Positions 24,106 through 34,817 of a stretch of 38,957 nucleotides of DNA are shown piece after piece (position 1 is the stretch's first letter; each line of letters starts with the position of its first letter). Made by a program: the position numbers and the translations under genes. Origin of the DNA: Myxococcales bacterium (lineage in GTDB: Bacteria; Myxococcota; Myxococcia; Myxococcales; JAKAPL01); the NCBI GenBank assembly GCA_021783235.1, contig JAJXUD010000042.1, positions 1-38,957 of the forward strand, given 5' to 3'. The notes beneath the pieces were generated by a model. The model was not told the origin of the DNA. It made no database searches and was given only the letters and a program-made list of their open reading frames with translations.

Positions 24106-24141
24106 CAGGACGGCCGCTCTCCGACCCCCGAAAGGATGCAC

Positions 24142-25923
24142 ATGATCGCCAAGTCCAACCTCGACCAGAACCCGCTCACCAAGAACGAGGCGCTCATCGC
24201 CTGGGTGGACGAGATGGCGAAGCTCTGCAAGCCCGATCGCGTCGTCTGGTGCGACGGCTCGGAGCAGGAGAAGCGGAGCCTCACCGAGGAGGCGGTGGCG
24301 AAGGGGATCCTGACGCCGCTGAACCAGCAGAAGCTCCCGGGCTGCTACCTCCACCGCTCGAACCCGAACGACGTCGCCCGGGTCGAGCACCTCACCTTCA
24401 TCTGCACGAAGACGCGCGAGGCGGCGGGCCCCACGAACCACTGGATGGAGCCGCAGGAGGCCTACCAGAAGCTCGGCAAGCTCTACGACGGCTCGATGAA
24501 GGGCCGCACGATGTACGTGGTCCCCTACCTCATGGGGCCGGTCGGCTCGCCCTACTCGAAGGTCGGCATCGAGCTGACCGACAGCGTCTACGTGGCCCTC
24601 AACATGCGGATCATGACGCGCATGGGCCGCGTCGCGCTCGAGCAGCTCGGCGGCAGGGGCGACTTCAACCGCGGCCTGCACGCGATGCTCGACTGCAACC
24701 CCGATCGCCGCTTCATCTGCCACTTCCCCGAGGACAACACGATCTGGTCGGTGGGCTCGGGCTACGGCGGCAACGTGCTGCTCGGCAAGAAGTGCCTCGC
24801 GCTCCGGATCGGCAGCTACCTCGGCAAGACCGAGGGCTGGCTCGCCGAGCACATGCTGATCCTCGGCGTCGAGAGCCCCGAGGGGCAGATGTCCTACGTC
24901 GCGGCGGCGTTCCCGTCGGCCTGCGGCAAGACGAACTTCGCCATGATGATCCCGCCGAAGCGGTTCGACGGCTGGAAGATCTGGACCGTCGGCGACGACA
25001 TCGCCTGGATGCGGGTCGGCCCCGACGGGCGGCTCTGGGCCGTCAACCCCGAGGCGGGCTACTTCGGCGTCGCGCCGGGCACGAACGAGAAGTCGAACCC
25101 GAACGCGATGCGGACGATCTCGCGCGACACCATCTACACGAACGTCGCGGTGACGCCGGACGGCGACGTCTGGTGGGAGGGCAAGTCCAAGGAGCCGCCG
25201 GACGGGCTGACGGACTGGCAGGGGCGCCCCTGGAAGAAGGGCTCGGCCGAGAAGGCCGCGCACCCGAACTCGCGCTTCACCTCGCCGATGACGAACAACC
25301 CGGTGCTCTCGAAGCAGGCCGACGATCCGCAGGGCGTTCCGATCTCGGCGATCATCTTCGGCGGCCGGCGGAGCAGCACCGTTCCGCTCGTGCTCCAGTC
25401 CTTCAACTGGACCCACGGCGTCTTCCTCGGGGCGACCCTCGGCTCGGAGACCACCGCCGCGGCCACGGGCAAGGTGGGCGTCGTCCGGCGCGACCCGATG
25501 GCGATGCTCCCGTTCTGCGGCTACGACATGGGCGAGTACCTCGGCCACTGGCTCGGGATGCAGAGCAAGATCCCGTACCCGCCGAAGATCTTCCAGGTGA
25601 ACTGGTTCCGGCAGGGCAAGGACGGCAAGTTCCTCTGGCCGGGCTACGGCGAGAACATGCGCGTCCTCAAGTGGATCATCGACCGGGCCCACGGCCGCGT
25701 CGGCGGGCAGGAGACCCTGCTCGGCTGGGTGCCGAAGGCCGGCGATCTCGATCTGTCGGGCCTCTCGATCCCGGCCGAGGCCGTCGACGAGGCCACCTCC
25801 ATCGACGTCGCCGCCTGGAAGGCGGAGTTCGAGAGCCAGCAGGAGTTCTTCGACCAGCTCGGCCGGACGCTGCCGCGCCCGCTCGCCCTGCAGCGCGAGC
25901 TCCTGATGTCGCGGCTCGGCTAG
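24142..25923 (+). CDS. pckG: Phosphoenolpyruvate carboxykinase (GTP)
   Basis: GTP-dependent PEPCK, converting oxaloacetate to PEP for gluconeogenesis. The 593-residue product has the family signature [16 protein letters not shown], the P-loop FPSACGKTN (K263 region), the metal and nucleotide site [10 protein letters not shown], and [15 protein letters not shown] choose ATG 24142 because AAAGG (24131-24135) is 6 bp before it; ATG 24136 directly abuts that sequence. Glyoxylate-shunt genes about 7 kb downstream make a coherent acetate-to-sugar route. The ATP-dependent type would look quite different. Confidence 0.95.
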
Positions 25924-25956
25924 CGCCGGTTACGGTTCGCCGGAGCGCTCGCTAGC
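25919..25956 (+). terminator. Hairpin over the pckG stop, possible terminator
   Basis: GCTAGCG (25919-25925) and CGCTAGC (25950-25956) form a perfect 7-bp stem with an inner CCGG/CCGG pairing, and TTTC follows. The hairpin begins inside the stop codon. The T-run is short, so efficiency is uncertain. A weak promoter (TTACGG-N17-TAGCTT, 25930-25958) for the next gene overlaps it. Confidence 0.4.
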
Positions 25957-25988
25957 TTTCCCGTGGTGCAGGGAAGGCGGGGCGGGCC

Positions 25989-27221
25989 ATGCGGCGGACG
26001 GGATGGGTGTGTCTCGCGGCGTTCTTCGCCGCCTGCGGCGACCGCCGCGTCACCGGCGATCCCGGACTGGGCACGGGGCCTTCCATGGCGCCCCGCCGGC
26101 TCCGCCCCTCCGTCGCCCCTCCCGCGGGCATCGTCGCCTGGCCGCCCGACGCCGGCTTCGTCGAGGCCGCCCACTCGCTTCCGCTCATGACCGATCTCGG
26201 CGGGCCGGTGCTCGACCGGCCGGTCGCCGTCACGATCACCTTCGCGAACGATCCCGACCGGGCCCTCGACGAGGCGCTCGCCGGGTTCCTGTCGACCTCG
26301 ACCTGGCTCGCGACCGTCGGCCCCGAGTACGGGGTCCTGGGGCTCGACCACCTGGAGGTCGAGCTGCCGCAGGACGCGCCCTCGCGGCTCTCGGATCTCT
26401 CCGCCCAGCGGCTGCTCCAGAGCCTCCTCGCGTCGGGGGAGCTCCCCGGCGGGGCGCCCGACGGCGGCGTCGCGCCGGAGTACGTCTACCTGCTCTACGT
26501 GCCGAAGCGCACGGCCTTCGACGTGAGCGGCCAGCCGCTCTGCGACGTCTCGAGCGGCGGCTACCACTTCGAGCTGATCGGCGCCGGGCTGGACGTCCCC
26601 TACGCGGTCCTAAAGGCCTGCGCCTCGCCCGGCGCCACGGACGGGGAGCTCCTGGCGCGGGCCGCCTCGCACGAGCTCATCGGGGCCGCGACCGACCCCT
26701 ACCCCTTCTCGAACCCCGCCTGGCGGATCTTCGACCTGCAGAATCCATACGCCTACTTCGGGGGCGAGGTGGGGGACCTCTGCGAGAACCTCTCGCCCCA
26801 GTGGCAGGAGGGCGCCTTCCAGAAGCTGCAGCGCGTCTGGTCCAACGCCGCCGCGAAGGCGGGCGGCGATCCCTGCCGGCCGGCGGTGGGCAGCTACTTC
26901 GGCGCCGGCGTCTCGCCCGCGACCGCCGTCCAGGCCCCCGCGGGGAGCACCATCCACTTCCAGTTGACCGGCTGGTCGACGGCGCCCGTGCCCAACTGGA
27001 GGCTCTCCGCCTACTCCTTTCCGCTCGCCGGCTCCTTCGACGGCGCGCCGACGCTCAGCCGCGACACCCTCGCCGACGGTGACAGCGCCGACCTCACCGT
27101 GACGGTCCCCCGCGGAACGCCCTCGGGATCGATGGCGCTCATCGGCGTGGATTCGACCCAGGCGACCGGGGCGCCCCAGCCGGCGGTCACCACGGCGCTC
27201 GCGCTCGTGATCGTGCCGTAG
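25989..27221 (+). CDS. Predicted lipoprotein with HEL-x(2)-A-x-TDP motif, copy 1
   Basis: A 410-residue exported protein. The signal peptide ends in the lipobox-like FAAC (C18), so it is probably lipid-anchored. A conserved middle block (about 195-280) contains VSSGGYHFELIG, RAASHELIGAATDPYPFSNPAW, and FGGEVGDLCENLSPQW. The order H-E-L, TDP, W and E-x-GD-x-C resembles a motif in plant EXORDIUM-like and some bacterial exported proteins, possibly a metal site. A beta-rich C-terminal domain follows, including TAVQAPAGSTIHFQLTGWSTAP. A close paralog lies at 27886-29262. Here the second acid of the motif is Gly (HELIG), where copy 2 has Glu (HELIE). The function is unknown. Confidence 0.7.
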   Translation: MRRTGWVCLAAFFAACGDRRVTGDPGLGTGPSMAPRRLRPSVAPPAGIVAWPPDAGFVEAAHSLPLMTDLGGPVLDRPVAVTITFANDPDRALDEALAGFLSTSTWLATVGPEYGVLGLDHLEVELPQDAPSRLSDLSAQRLLQSLLASGELPGGAPDGGVAPEYVYLLYVPKRTAFDVSGQPLCDVSSGGYHFELIGAGLDVPYAVLKACASPGATDGELLARAASHELIGAATDPYPFSNPAWRIFDLQNPYAYFGGEVGDLCENLSPQWQEGAFQKLQRVWSNAAAKAGGDPCRPAVGSYFGAGVSPATAVQAPAGSTIHFQLTGWSTAPVPNWRLSAYSFPLAGSFDGAPTLSRDTLADGDSADLTVTVPRGTPSGSMALIGVDSTQATGAPQPAVTTALALVIVP

Positions 27222-27224
27222 GGC

Positions 27225-27764
27225 CTACGGCGCCTGGCCGCCGAGCAGCTTGTCGGCCTCCTTGCGGAGGAAGCCCTCGCTCGCGATGCCGACGATCCGG
27301 CCGACCACTCGGCCGTCGCGCCGCACGAGGAAGGTCGTCGGCACCTGGTCGACGCCCATCTCGCTCGCGAAGCGGCCGCCGTCGTCCAGCAGCGGCAGGT
27401 GGTCGATGGACTTCGCGCGCGCGACCGAGCGGGCCTGGGCGGCGCCTCCCCAGCCCATGACCGCGAGCACCGAGACCTTTCCAGCGTACCGCTGCGCCAG
27501 CTCGTCGATTCCGGGCAACTCCCGGATGCAGGCCATTCAGCCGGGCGACCAGACGTTGATGATGGCCGGCCTGCCGGCGAGGGCCTGGGAGGTGACGCGA
27601 GGCCCCTCGCCCACGGGCTGCGCGGAGAACGCGGGCAGCGGCCGGTCCTCCGTGCGCACCGAGGCGCAGCCGCCGCCGAGGGAGGAGCCCATGACGATCG
27701 CCGCGGCGACGATGCCGATCCAGGGCAGGTAGGTCTCCGCGAGCCGCCAGAGCTTTCGGGCCAT
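27225..27764 (-). CDS. Thioredoxin-fold (TlpA-like) selenoprotein, UxxC, reading through TGA at 27539-27537
   Basis: Two abutting frames, 75 and 103 codons, are joined by one in-frame TGA and together make a complete 179-residue TlpA-like thioredoxin. The N-terminus has a membrane segment (YLPWIGIVAAAIVMGSSLGGGC), so the domain should face the periplasm. The strand AIINVWSPG leads to U76-M-A-C79; the spacing W-x3-U-x2-C equals W-x3-C-x2-C of TlpA proteins, so the TGA takes the place of the first redox cysteine. The remaining fold is intact: IRELPGIDELAQRY helix, VSVLAVMGW strand, cis-Pro in DQVPTTFLVRRDGRVVG (P142). A 17-nt hairpin placed like a bacterial SECIS follows the TGA. A nonsense mutation is the alternative, but then the fold, position and hairpin would all be coincidence. 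The two flanking genes are the paralogous lipoproteins. Confidence 0.82.
27510..27526 (-). promoter_or_regulatory. Candidate bacterial SECIS hairpin
   Basis: On the minus strand UCCGGG-AGUUG-CCCGGA is a perfect 6-bp stem with a 5-nt loop. It begins 10 nt after the UGA at 27539-27537. Known bacterial SECIS cores are about 17-nt hairpins roughly 11 nt after UGA with a G among the first two loop bases; here the loop begins A-G-U. It lies in coding sequence, as bacterial SECIS elements do. Confidence 0.72.
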
Positions 27765-27824
27765 GGTGCGGTTCTAACACGCGGGTCGCCTCCGCGCTCG
27801 CGTCAGCCGCGCCGAAGCGGCCGG

Positions 27825-27854
27825 TTGCGGACCGGGCAGCGCTGCTGTTAGCGT
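27825..27854 (+). promoter_or_regulatory. Probable promoter of the second HEL-TDP lipoprotein gene
   Basis: TTGCGG (27825-27830), 18 bp, TAGCGT (27849-27854). AAGGAG at 27874-27879 gives a good ribosome site for the GTG start at 27886. Confidence 0.45.
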
Positions 27855-27885
27855 CGCTCGACTTTCGGGGGCGAAGGAGCGGCGC

Positions 27886-29262
27886 GTGCGGATCGAATGG
27901 CTCACTCTGACGGCGCTCCTCGCGGCCGGCTGCAACCCGAAGACCTCGGTCGGGCCGACCGGCCAGAAGAACCCCCTCCCGCTCGGGACCGACGCCGGGA
28001 GCGGGGTCGCGGACGCCGGCGAGGCCGACGCGGGGAGCCCGGACGCCGGCCCCTCCGACGGGGGCTGGGTCGAGAGCCCCCATTCGGTCTCGGCCGTGCC
28101 GAACGAGGGCGGCTCGGCGCTCGCCCGGCCCATCGCCGTGGCGATCACCTTCGCGAACGATCCGAACCGGGCCCACATCGACGCGCTCTCGGCCTTCCTG
28201 CCGGGTTCGACCTGGCTGAAGACCGTGAGCCCCGAGTACGGCATCGGGAGCCTCGGCCACGTCGAGGTCGAGCTGCCGCAGGACGCCCCGTCCGCGATGA
28301 CCGACACCGACCTGCAGAACCTGCTCCAGAGCCTCCTCGCGAGCGGCACCGTCCCCGGCGGGACGCCCGACGGCGGCGCGGCCTCCGGCGGAGCGGACGG
28401 CGGAGGCGCGGACGGGGGAGGCTCGGACGCCGGGATCGCCGACGGTGGCACAATGGACGCGGGGATCTCGGACGGCGGGATCTCGGACGGCGGCTCCGCC
28501 GACGCGGGCTCGCTCGGAGCGCCGCAGTACGTCTACCTCTTCTTCCTGCCGGTCAGCACGAGCTTCACGACGCAGGGCCAGGGGCTCTGCAGCATCTCCG
28601 GCGGCGGCTACCACTCCGAGACCCAGCTGACGAACCTCGACGTGCCCTACGCGGTGATCCAGCCGTGCCCGGGCCAGGGCCTCTCCGACGTGCAGATCCT
28701 CGACCTCGCCGGCTCCCACGAGCTCATCGAGGCGCTCACCGATCCCTACCCCTACACGAATCCCGCCTGGGTGATCCTCGATCCCCAGAGCCCCTGGAGC
28801 TACATCGGCGGCGAGGTCGGCGACGTCTGCTCCTACCTCGCGCCGCAGTGGAAGGAGGGGAGCTTCGACGACCTGCAGCGCGTCTGGTCGAACCGCTCCG
28901 CGACCGACGGCGGCGACCCCTGCCTGCCCGCGGTCGGCACCTACTTCGGCACCGCCATCTCGCCCGCCACCATCGTCCAGGGGCAGCCGGGCGGCAGCGT
29001 CGATTTTCAGCTCACCGGCTGGTCGACCGCCCCCGTCGCCGACTGGACGCTGCAGGCGTTCAACGGCGGCTCGCAGGGCGGCCCCTCCTTCGACGGCACG
29101 CCCACGCTGAGCAGCTACGGGATGAACGACGGCGAGAGCGCGACCCTCACGGTCCACGTGCCGTCGAACGCCGCCTCGCAGTCGTACGCGATGGTCATCG
29201 TGCTCTCTGGCGGGAGCCAGAACGACTACACGGCGAGCGTCGCGATGGTCTACGTGCCCTGA
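27886..29262 (+). CDS. Predicted lipoprotein with HEL-x(2)-A-x-TDP motif, copy 2, with Asp-Gly-Gly linker
   Basis: A 458-residue paralog of the gene at 25989-27221. The signal peptide ends in the lipobox-like LLAAGC (C17). The conserved N-terminal block (RPIAVAITFANDPNRAHIDALSAFL, STWLKTVSPEYGIGSLGHVEVELPQDAPS) matches copy 1 closely. An inserted low-complexity linker of Asp-Gly-Gly/Asp-Ala-Gly repeats (about 165-212) follows. The motif block GSHELIEALTDPYPYTNPAW and IGGEVGDVCSYLAPQW comes next, and the C-terminal domain shares PATIVQGQPGGSVDFQLTGWSTAP with copy 1. The motif HELIE-x(2)-TDP retains the second Glu. A metal-dependent or EXORDIUM-like role is possible but unproven. Confidence 0.72.
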   Translation: MRIEWLTLTALLAAGCNPKTSVGPTGQKNPLPLGTDAGSGVADAGEADAGSPDAGPSDGGWVESPHSVSAVPNEGGSALARPIAVAITFANDPNRAHIDALSAFLPGSTWLKTVSPEYGIGSLGHVEVELPQDAPSAMTDTDLQNLLQSLLASGTVPGGTPDGGAASGGADGGGADGGGSDAGIADGGTMDAGISDGGISDGGSADAGSLGAPQYVYLFFLPVSTSFTTQGQGLCSISGGGYHSETQLTNLDVPYAVIQPCPGQGLSDVQILDLAGSHELIEALTDPYPYTNPAWVILDPQSPWSYIGGEVGDVCSYLAPQWKEGSFDDLQRVWSNRSATDGGDPCLPAVGTYFGTAISPATIVQGQPGGSVDFQLTGWSTAPVADWTLQAFNGGSQGGPSFDGTPTLSSYGMNDGESATLTVHVPSNAASQSYAMVIVLSGGSQNDYTASVAMVYVP

Positions 29263-29278
29263 GGTCCGGCGCCCGGGA

Positions 29279-30730
29279 TCAGGTCGCGTCGACCCGCGCG
29301 TAGAGCGAGACGCCGCGCAGGTTCTCGTCGAGCTGCAGCGGCTGGCGCAGCGACGGGAAGGCGCGCTGCGCGCAGTCCATCCGCTCGCAGAGGCGGCAGC
29401 TCGTCCCCACCGGCACCGCCGCCGCGAGGTCCGTCAGGTCGATGCCGTCCGAGTAGACGAGCTCCTTCGCGTCCTGGAGCCGGCAGCCGAGCGCGAGGGC
29501 CTGCACGGGCGGCTGCGCGTGGTAGCCGCCGCTGTCGTGCTGTAGCGTCCGCGCCACGCAGAAGTAGGCGCTTCCGTCGGTCATCCGCGAGATCTGCGTC
29601 CGGATGAGGCCGGGCGTGAGGAACGCCTGGAAGACGTTCCAGCGCGGGCAGGCGCCCGAGAAGCGCGCGAAGTGGATCCCCGAGGACGAGAAGCGCTTCG
29701 AGAGGTTGCCGGCCACGTCGATGCGCAGCATGTGGAACGGGACGCCCTCCGCGCCGGGGCGGCGCAGCGTCGTCAGCCGGTGGCAGACCTGCTCGAAGCC
29801 CACGCGGAAGCGGCGGCCGAGCACGTCGATGTCGTACCGCTCCTCCCGCGCCGCCGCGAGGAACGGCCCGTAGGGCATGAGCACCGCGCCCGCGAAGTAG
29901 TTCGCGAGCGCCACCCGCGCGAGCGTGCGCGACTCCTCGCTCGTCAGCCGCCCGTCCTGGACCAGCCGGTCGAGCCCCTCGCGCGCCCCGAGGAGCGCGA
30001 GCTGGTGGGCGAGCTGGAAGGTGCGGCTGCGCGTCGGCAAGAGCTCGGAGAGCGTCAGCGTCTTGCGGGCGGCGTCGAAGCGGCGCAGCACCCCGCGCTC
30101 GGCGAGGCCGCGCCCGATTCGCACCTGCACCCCGTGGGCCGCCTCGAGGTGGCGCACGAGCCTCGGCGCGAGCTCCTCCGGGTCGAGCTTCGCCTCCCGC
30201 CAGAGCCGCTCGGCCCCGGCCTCGAGCTCGGGAAAGTGGTTCTGCCGGTCCTGGATGAGGTCGCTCACCTCCTCGGAGGGGAGCAGCGAGTGGGCGGCGC
30301 CCGCCGGCTCGTCGCCCACCACCTGCGAGGCCAGCGTCTCGGCGCTCTGGCGGGCGCTCCGGTAGGCCCGGTAGAGCGCGAGCACCGCGCGGGCGGCGGC
30401 GGGGCTGCCGGTCGCGAGCTCTCGCAGGTCGGTCGTCGTGAGCCCGTGCGACTCGAAGAGCGGATCGGCGAAGGCCTCGAGCAGCTCGGCGGAGAGCCGC
30501 GCCTCCCCGTCGGCGGCGAAGCTCGTCACGTCGAGCGAGAACTGCTGCGCGAGCTTGATGAGCAGCCCCGCCGGCAGGGGGCGCCGGTTCGCCTCGATGA
30601 GGTTCAGGTAGCTCGCCGAGACGCCGAGCCGCTGCGCGAGCTGCGCCTGGCTCAAGTTCTCGCGCCGCCGCAGGGAGCGGACCTTCGCCCCGAGCCTCGG
30701 ATCGGCCTCGCTCTTCTCGGTCTTCGGCAT
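29279..30730 (-). CDS. ScfR/RamB-type XRE regulator with IrrE-like and DUF2083 domains
   Basis: A 483-residue regulator. The N-terminal helix-turn-helix (residues 11-68) contains NLSQAQLAQRLGVSASYLNLIEANRRP. A central IrrE/ImmA-like domain (about 150-260) follows, in which the zinc motif HExxH is degenerate (FQLAHQLAL). The C-terminal DUF2083 domain ends with the cysteine cluster SCRLCERMDC (C445, C448, C453). In actinobacteria RamB, of this family, controls the glyoxylate genes; ScfR-type members respond to short-chain acyl-CoA signals. Here it is divergent from aceB-aceA with a 128-bp shared control region, which strongly suggests the same duty. Copies of TGTAAAG precede both divergent genes, so it may also control itself. 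Confidence 0.88.
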   Translation of the reverse strand: MPKTEKSEADPRLGAKVRSLRRRENLSQAQLAQRLGVSASYLNLIEANRRPLPAGLLIKLAQQFSLDVTSFAADGEARLSAELLEAFADPLFESHGLTTTDLRELATGSPAAARAVLALYRAYRSARQSAETLASQVVGDEPAGAAHSLLPSEEVSDLIQDRQNHFPELEAGAERLWREAKLDPEELAPRLVRHLEAAHGVQVRIGRGLAERGVLRRFDAARKTLTLSELLPTRSRTFQLAHQLALLGAREGLDRLVQDGRLTSEESRTLARVALANYFAGAVLMPYGPFLAAAREERYDIDVLGRRFRVGFEQVCHRLTTLRRPGAEGVPFHMLRIDVAGNLSKRFSSSGIHFARFSGACPRWNVFQAFLTPGLIRTQISRMTDGSAYFCVARTLQHDSGGYHAQPPVQALALGCRLQDAKELVYSDGIDLTDLAAAVPVGTSCRLCERMDCAQRAFPSLRQPLQLDENLRGVSLYARVDAT

Positions 30731-30747
30731 GCGCAGCTCCGGGTCGA

Positions 30748-30855
30748 TTGACAGACTTTACAGCGTGACAGCCTGTCGTTGACAGGCCTCGACGGACGCT
30801 TCCGTGGCTACAGCCATTTGCCCTTGAATCGTCCGCCCGACGAGCCATTGTAAAG
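30748..30855. promoter_or_regulatory. Divergent control region of the regulator and aceB-aceA
   Basis: CTTTACA (30756-30762) and TGTAAAG (30849-30855) form a perfect inverted pair, so TGTAAAG precedes both divergent genes. Between them are three TGACAG words and the palindrome GACAGCCTGTC (30767-30777). These are the natural candidates for binding by the RamB/ScfR-type regulator. TTGACA at 30779-30784 could be a -35 box for aceB, though no good -10 is seen at the right distance. Confidence 0.45.
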
Positions 30856-30858
30856 CTC

Positions 30859-32480
30859 GTGAAAGCGACCACCGTCAAGACCCTCCTCCCCGCGCCGAAG
30901 GGCGCCGAGTCGATCCTCGCGGAGCCGGCGCTCCGCTTCCTCGAGGATCTCGCCCAGCGCTTCGCCCCCCGCGTCCGCGAGCTGCTCGTCCGCCGCCACG
31001 AGCGGCAGGCCCGCTTCGACCGGGGCGAGCGGCCCGACTTCCTCCCCGAGACCGCCGAGATCCGGCGCGCCGACTGGAAGGTCGCGCCGCCGCGCCCCGA
31101 CCTCTCCGACCGGCGGGTCGAGATCACGGGCCCCACCGACCGCAAGATGGTGATCAACGCGCTCAACTCGGGGGCCAGCGTCTTCATGGCGGACTTCGAG
31201 GACTCGAACGCGCCGACCTGGGAGAACCTGCTCCTCGGCCAGAAGAACCTCTGGGACGCCGTGCGGCGCGAGATCGCCTACGAGGCCCCCGAGACGGGGA
31301 GGCGCTACGAGCTCGCCGAGAAGATCGCGACGCTCATGGTGAGGCCGCGCGGCTGGCACCTTCCGGAGAAGCACCTCGAGGTCGCGGGCGAGCCCATCCC
31401 GGGCTCGCTCTTCGACTTCGGCCTCTTCTTCTTCCACAACGCCCGCGAGCTCGTGCGGCGCCAGAGCGGCCCCTACTTCTACCTGCCCAAGATGGAGAGC
31501 CACCTCGAGGCGCGGCTCTGGAACGACGTCTTCGCGCACGCCGAGCGGCTCCTCGAATTGCCCGCCGGCACGGTGCGCGCCACCTGCCTCATCGAGACGC
31601 TGCCCGCCGCCTTCGAGATGGACGAGATCCTCTGGGAGCTGCGCGAGCGGTCGGCGGGGCTGAACTGCGGCCGCTGGGACTACATCTTCAGCTTCATCAA
31701 GAAGCTCGCCCAGGATCCCAAGGCCGTCCTCCCCGACCGGGCGACGGTGACGATGGACCAGGGCTTCCTCGCGGCCTACGTGCAGCTCCTCATCCGAAGC
31801 TGCCACCGGCGCGGCGCCCACGCCATGGGCGGCATGGCGGCCCAGATCCCCATCAAGCACGACTCCGCCGCGAACGAGGCGGCGCTCGCCAAGGTGCGCG
31901 CCGACAAGCTGCGCGAGGCGCGCGCCGGCCACGACGGCACCTGGGTCGCCCACCCGGGCCTCGTCGCGGTGGCGCGCGAGGTCTTCGACCGCGAGATGCC
32001 GGGGCCGAACCAGCTCGACCGGCCGCCCCCCGAGGCCGCGATCCGCCAGGCCGACCTCCTTCGGGTCCCCGAGGGGCCGCGCAGCGAGGCCGGGCTGCGG
32101 CACAACGTCCGGGTCGGCATCCAGTACCTCGAGGCCTGGCTGCGCGGGCAGGGCTGCGTGCCGCTCTACCAGCTCATGGAGGACGCCGCGACCGCCGAGA
32201 TCTCGCGCGCCCAGGTCTGGCAGTGGATCCAGCACCGCGCCCCGCTGGACGGCCTGCGCGTCCTCGGCGCCCGCGACCTCCCGCCCATCGTCGACGAGGA
32301 GCTCGAGAAGATCCGCGGCGAGGTGGGCGAGGAGCGCTTCGCCCGCGGCCGCTTCTCCGACGCGCGCGCCCTCTTCGAGCGGCTCGCCACCGCCGAGCGC
32401 TTCGAGGAGTTCCTCACCCTGCCGGCCTACGAGACCCTGCTCGAGCTCGAGCGGGCTGACCCCGCAACCAGGAGGAGCGC

Positions 32481-32484
<4 letters not shown>
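30859..32484 (+). CDS. aceB: Malate synthase A
   Basis: Condenses glyoxylate with acetyl-CoA to malate in the glyoxylate shunt. The 541-residue product has the A-type features [87 protein letters not shown] and [13 protein letters not shown]. It ends after a C-terminal plug with the Asp-containing [23 protein letters not shown] at 30859 lies 3 bp after TGTAAAG. The stop overlaps aceA (ATGA). Confidence 0.95.
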
Positions 32485-33761
<1,277 letters not shown>

Positions 33762-33830
33762 AAGCGGTTGCAGCTCGGCCCCTCCATGGTTAATCCTCCC
33801 TGGCCCCAGCGGGTCAGGAGGAAAGCCACC

Positions 33831-34817
<987 letters not shown>

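Follow-up and report, generated by a model that had tools for sequence, protein, structure and literature searches.

A probable UxxC selenoprotein of the TlpA/ResA-like thioredoxin type in a Myxococcales genome

In the window analysed here, i.e. the whole stretch of 38,957 nucleotides, a gene for a thioredoxin-like protein is crossed by one in-frame TGA, and the question is whether this codon breaks the gene or is read as selenocysteine (Sec), and what the product would then do. A preliminary description had placed the TGA at the first active-site cysteine of a thioredoxin-fold gene, and both this position and the limits given for the gene were found to be correct; its strand, left unstated there, is the minus strand. 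Translated from 27764 to 27228 on that strand, with U written for TGA, the gene encodes 179 residues, consistent with the product of about 19 kDa that had been expected. The single TGA falls at residue 76, within W72-S-P-G-U76-M-A-C79, and corresponds to the first active-site cysteine position of a ResA/TlpA-like thioredoxin. The thioredoxin fold, a CxxC-type site whose first C is replaced by U, and the cis-proline are all present; V141-P142-T143 is the cis-proline position of the fold. Judged from the sequence evidence set out below, this UGA very probably specifies Sec, and its actual insertion is strongly indicated. The features of the locus are listed in Table 1.

Table 1. Coordinates of the putative selenoprotein gene and its features in the window
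Feature	Position	Strand	Details
TlpA/ResA-like putative selenoprotein gene	27225..27764	-	ATG 27764-27762, TAG stop 27227-27225, 179 aa
In-frame UGA, candidate selenocysteine 76, first position of UxxC	27537..27539	-	read-through translation and alignment column
C79, putative resolving cysteine of UxxC	27528..27530	-	translation; invariant alignment column
Helix of residues 2-30 at the N-terminus, a predicted membrane anchor that ends near C33	27675..27761	-	AlphaFold; anchor role predicted
V141-P142-T143	27336..27344	-	V141 and P142 invariant in alignment
Predicted bSECIS hairpin UCCGGG-AGUUG-CCCGGA	27510..27526	-	6 perfect bp; stem begins 10 nt and loop 16 nt past the UGA

The AlphaFold model (mean pLDDT 91.3) consists of the N-terminal helix and a thioredoxin domain, and the best matching folds in the PDB are ResA (1st9, TMt 0.89), a Geobacter thioredoxin-family protein, CcmG, and TlpA. 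The ResA, CcmG (DsbE), and TlpA reductases are also the best sequence matches and have a membrane-tethered extracytoplasmic domain, as is predicted for the present protein, whereas their active site is CxxC and not UxxC. The curated ResA, DsbE, and TlpA models match far under their cut-offs (ResA, NF002854, 41.5 bits against 170). In the alignment, inspected by eye, a lipobox-like site with Gly/Ala-Cys at its end is seen in most relatives. The same-family gene L107 lacks that Cys; therefore, the tether is probably a helix or a lipid depending on the lineage. The N-terminal helix, the lipobox-like cysteine of most relatives, and ResA as the best fold together support the earlier proposal of a membrane-anchored, periplasm-facing UxxC protein. 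The best reading is that of a membrane-tethered periplasmic Sec thiol-disulfide oxidoreductase, with export predicted from these features.

A possible mechanism can be described as follows. SelB and Sec-tRNA-Sec would recognise the hairpin just downstream of the UGA and Sec would be put in at residue 76. The product would be exported and tethered to the membrane, in the present protein through the N-terminal helix and in most relatives probably through a lipid anchor, with the thioredoxin domain oriented toward the periplasm. The selenolate of Sec76 would attack disulfides of envelope proteins, Cys79 would resolve the selenylsulfide, and a membrane donor of the DsbD/CcdA type would restore the reduced state. 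A DsbD/CcdA-type protein is encoded in the genome, without a link to the selenoprotein gene, and is a possible electron source.

The role of a periplasmic thiol-disulfide reductase, with Sec as the attacking residue, is moderately favoured. The direction of the reaction is not fixed by sequence, Sec chemistry is suited to peroxide reduction, and Pfam ranks Redoxin and AhpC-TSA first for this protein; these points would also agree with an oxidase, an isomerase, or a peroxide-reducing (peroxiredoxin-like) enzyme instead of a reductase of the ResA/TlpA type. However, the UxxC motif occurs together with an invariant VP motif, and ResA, CcmG, and TlpA, the nearest in fold and sequence, are thiol-disulfide oxidoreductases, which makes such an enzyme credible but rather unlikely.

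As for a substrate, the preliminary description had suggested that the protein serves the redox state of the two lipoproteins beside it. The flanking proteins (25989-27221 and 27886-29262, plus strand) are lipoprotein-like and indeed paralogues, as had been claimed, with 47% identity, and they lie close by: one gene ends 3 nt from the selenoprotein stop and the other begins about 120 nt from its start. Adjacency and paralogy would suit a partnership, but the selenoprotein gene is on the opposite strand to both neighbours and the neighbourhood is not conserved. Across 20 loci, no conserved neighbours were found beyond close relatives and no gene recurred at more than four; the homologue of neither lipoprotein stands beside other members, where the neighbours include a kinase, a radical SAM protein, an AraC regulator, and a deaminase. 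The proposed service to these lipoproteins is therefore very unlikely. No confident Pfam domain was found in either of them; the second has a low-complexity insert rich in Gly, Asp, and Ala, and its correct frame is 27886-29262, an ORF at 27897-29303 having been rejected as the wrong frame. The surrounding part of the window (24136-34817) is a glyoxylate-shunt neighbourhood with PEPCK, malate synthase, and isocitrate lyase, as well as a regulator (29279-30730, minus strand) that contains a short-chain fatty acyl-CoA regulator domain.

Whether Sec could be inserted depends on the decoding machinery, and the preliminary description had called for a search for selA, selB, selC, and selD. All four were found in the source genome (4.58 Mb, 133 contigs, 97% complete): a tRNA-Sec whose anticodon is UCA (74.5 bits), SelA, SelD, and SelB, the last with its C-terminal part included. 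SelD has an in-frame TGA of its own at the active site (GGG-U-ACKL; L018 / L065, contig C96) and is, by its sequence, probably a selenoprotein itself; therefore, UGA seems to be decoded as Sec in at least two genes of this genome. Since selA is carried by 50 of 60 relatives, the co-occurrence of the gene with Sec machinery is weak evidence.

Homologues of the gene were found with either TGA or Cys at the same column. The search of 60 relatives that was made first gave TGA-bearing matches, the best being a gene of the same family with 40% identity. When named genomes were searched with a DNA pattern for the Sec motif, matches came almost only from Myxococcales (Myxococcus, Corallococcus, Pyxidicoccus, and several MAGs); a Nocardia match (L070) was rejected as a short chance frame. 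When 145 genomes of the order were searched with a profile, 31 genes formed a clearly distinct group (E below 1e-37): 28 carry TGA at the active-site column, whereas those of G103, G133, and G136 carry Cys. A fourth Cys member is present in G155, outside the order, and all four Cys genes are close homologues. The TGA thus occurs at this column in 28 of the 145 genomes, single-contig genomes among them, and also in a Baikal MAG; the named carriers are Myxococcales. Invariant positions include W72, P74, U/C76, C79, R81, P84, V141, and P142. About 100 codons past the TGA are open and conserved, and dN/dS downstream of it is 0.05-0.32 in eight pairs, some of which have few changes; these ratios indicate that the downstream codons are under purifying selection. 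No other internal stop or frameshift was found in the TGA or Cys homologues, such as the preliminary description had expected of a pseudogene. A TAG in G103 and G155, considered as an internal stop, proved to be the ordinary terminal one.

In the tree, the Sec and Cys labels require seven changes, at least four of which are forced by well-supported branches. The window gene, its same-family relative, and two Cys paralogues from this family fall into one cluster; therefore, Sec and Cys have been exchanged more than once.

Downstream of the UGA, the 6-bp hairpin with an A-G-U loop start that had been reported 10 nt away was recovered as claimed. A published rule for bacterial SECIS (bSECIS) elements requires a G as the first or second base of the loop and then G or U, with the loop 16-37 nt from the UGA (PMC13188914), and the loop AGUUG at 16 nt agrees with it. 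In all 29 Sec genes (29/29), the loop is AGUUG or AGUUU and starts exactly 16 nt after the UGA. The folding energy of the window hairpin is unremarkable (z = -0.42); among synonymous recodings of the gene, 0.14% reach an equally long stem with a valid loop. In 20 distinct sequences the hairpin is conserved with compensatory changes, and two stem pairs covary (UA/CG and CG/UA/GC), which, together with the published rule, bears out the bSECIS reading. Stem cells are paired in 97.1% of cases, compared with 91.6% in shuffles, a control that ignores relatedness, and at most 59% in slid registers, which keep it; double-changed stem cells number 8, against 2.0 in shuffles. Codon choice is likewise biased at the hairpin: the loop Leu codon is TTG in 24/24 (2.5% elsewhere), the Arg codon is CGG in 29/29 (25% elsewhere), and the Ala codon is GCT in 19/23 (5% elsewhere). 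Three Myxococcaceae members (L086, L087, and L089) have weakened stems, and in the Cys homologues the hairpin is weaker or absent, G103 retaining a partial remnant. A search of the source genome with the hairpin model, which covers SECIS of this type, matched this gene only.

A full-length frame would likewise be obtained if the UGA were read by a near-cognate tRNA or reassigned, for instance to Trp or Cys, without Sec. However, the genome has the complete Sec machinery, the UGA column aligns with the catalytic cysteine, and the constraint at the RNA level weakens in Cys homologues; moreover, the same gene ends in TGA in some relatives, and thus TGA remains a stop there. Readthrough or reassignment is, on this evidence, extremely improbable. 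That a nonsense mutation or sequencing error has broken a TlpA-like gene, as one in-frame stop on a draft contig might suggest, or that the stop arose by chance, is excluded in practice: the TGA recurs at exactly this column in 28 genomes without other internal stop or frameshift, the codons beyond it are under purifying selection, and the hairpin is conserved.

With the UGA taken as a probable Sec codon, the gene can be compared with known selenoproteins. UxxC proteins of the thiol-disulfide isomerase-like or TlpA type (cd02966) and of the 'Trx-like 1' type (COG0526) are catalogued (PMC13188914 Table 1, PMC1088965, and PMC2398784), as are UxxC redoxin and Prx-like selenoproteins (PMC13188914, PMC1088965, and PMC2398784). 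As described there, the cd02966/COG0526 proteins have a thioredoxin fold with Sec at the N-terminal active-site position, as here; those in PMC1088965 and PMC2398784 come from marine metagenomes, whereas the present gene is myxobacterial, and the comparison is one of descriptions only. The Redoxin UxxC selenoprotein (PF08534) and the Prx-like thiol:disulfide oxidoreductase (PF00578) belong to the Pfam families ranked first here and share UxxC, a likeness of family and motif and not of aligned representatives. NF041054, a ResA-like WAxxUGC selenoprotein, also has an active-site Sec; however, its motif is UGC and its model longer (354 positions), whereas the present motif is UMAC, and the score is 21.8 bits against a cut-off of 300. 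No curated NCBIfam model, those for selenoproteins included, scored above cut-off. Myxobacteria are not mentioned in the passages of PMC13188914, PMC1088965, and PMC2398784 that treat UxxC selenoproteins of the TlpA, redoxin, and Prx-like types, and in literature outside subscription papers a search that paired selenocysteine with Myxococcus xanthus found nothing relevant. Therefore, the gene appears to be an added member, perhaps a new subfamily, of this catalogued class.

The chances are about even that the genes form an uncatalogued W-x-P-G-U-x-x-C subfamily, mostly lipoprotein-like and largely of Myxococcales, whose SECIS hardly varies and in which Sec and Cys have been exchanged several times, representing a selenium-dependent envelope oxidoreductase missed by annotation pipelines. 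If so, myxobacteria, including cultured predatory ones, would have such an enzyme. As a very probable selenoprotein that recurs reproducibly, the gene is in any case an addition to this group, and of a type that pipelines would split or label as broken. The Sec/Cys series, with intact or decaying hairpins, offers natural material on the gain and loss of Sec, and cultured carriers exist, among them Pyxidicoccus fallax and Corallococcus sicarius.

Other TGA-bearing genes were also observed. L052 (450-1463, plus strand), from a same-family genome, holds a second type of TlpA-like gene with the motif DFWTYGUVNC and a longer C-terminal part, and TlpA-like matches to it exist in the source genome. 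L057, from another family of the order, encodes on its minus strand a more remote protein of TlpA-like type. The UGA, at strand position 570, lies in the motif FLPGULPC, and the product is likely a further UxxC selenoprotein.

Upstream of the selenoprotein start, the minus strand of the window (27765-27782) has a -10-like TTAGAAC about 6 nt before the ATG. The L107 homologue has CTAGAAT as a -10-like box before its ATG, and Myxococcus members have AT-rich boxes at a similar place before the start codon. These boxes hint at leaderless transcripts.
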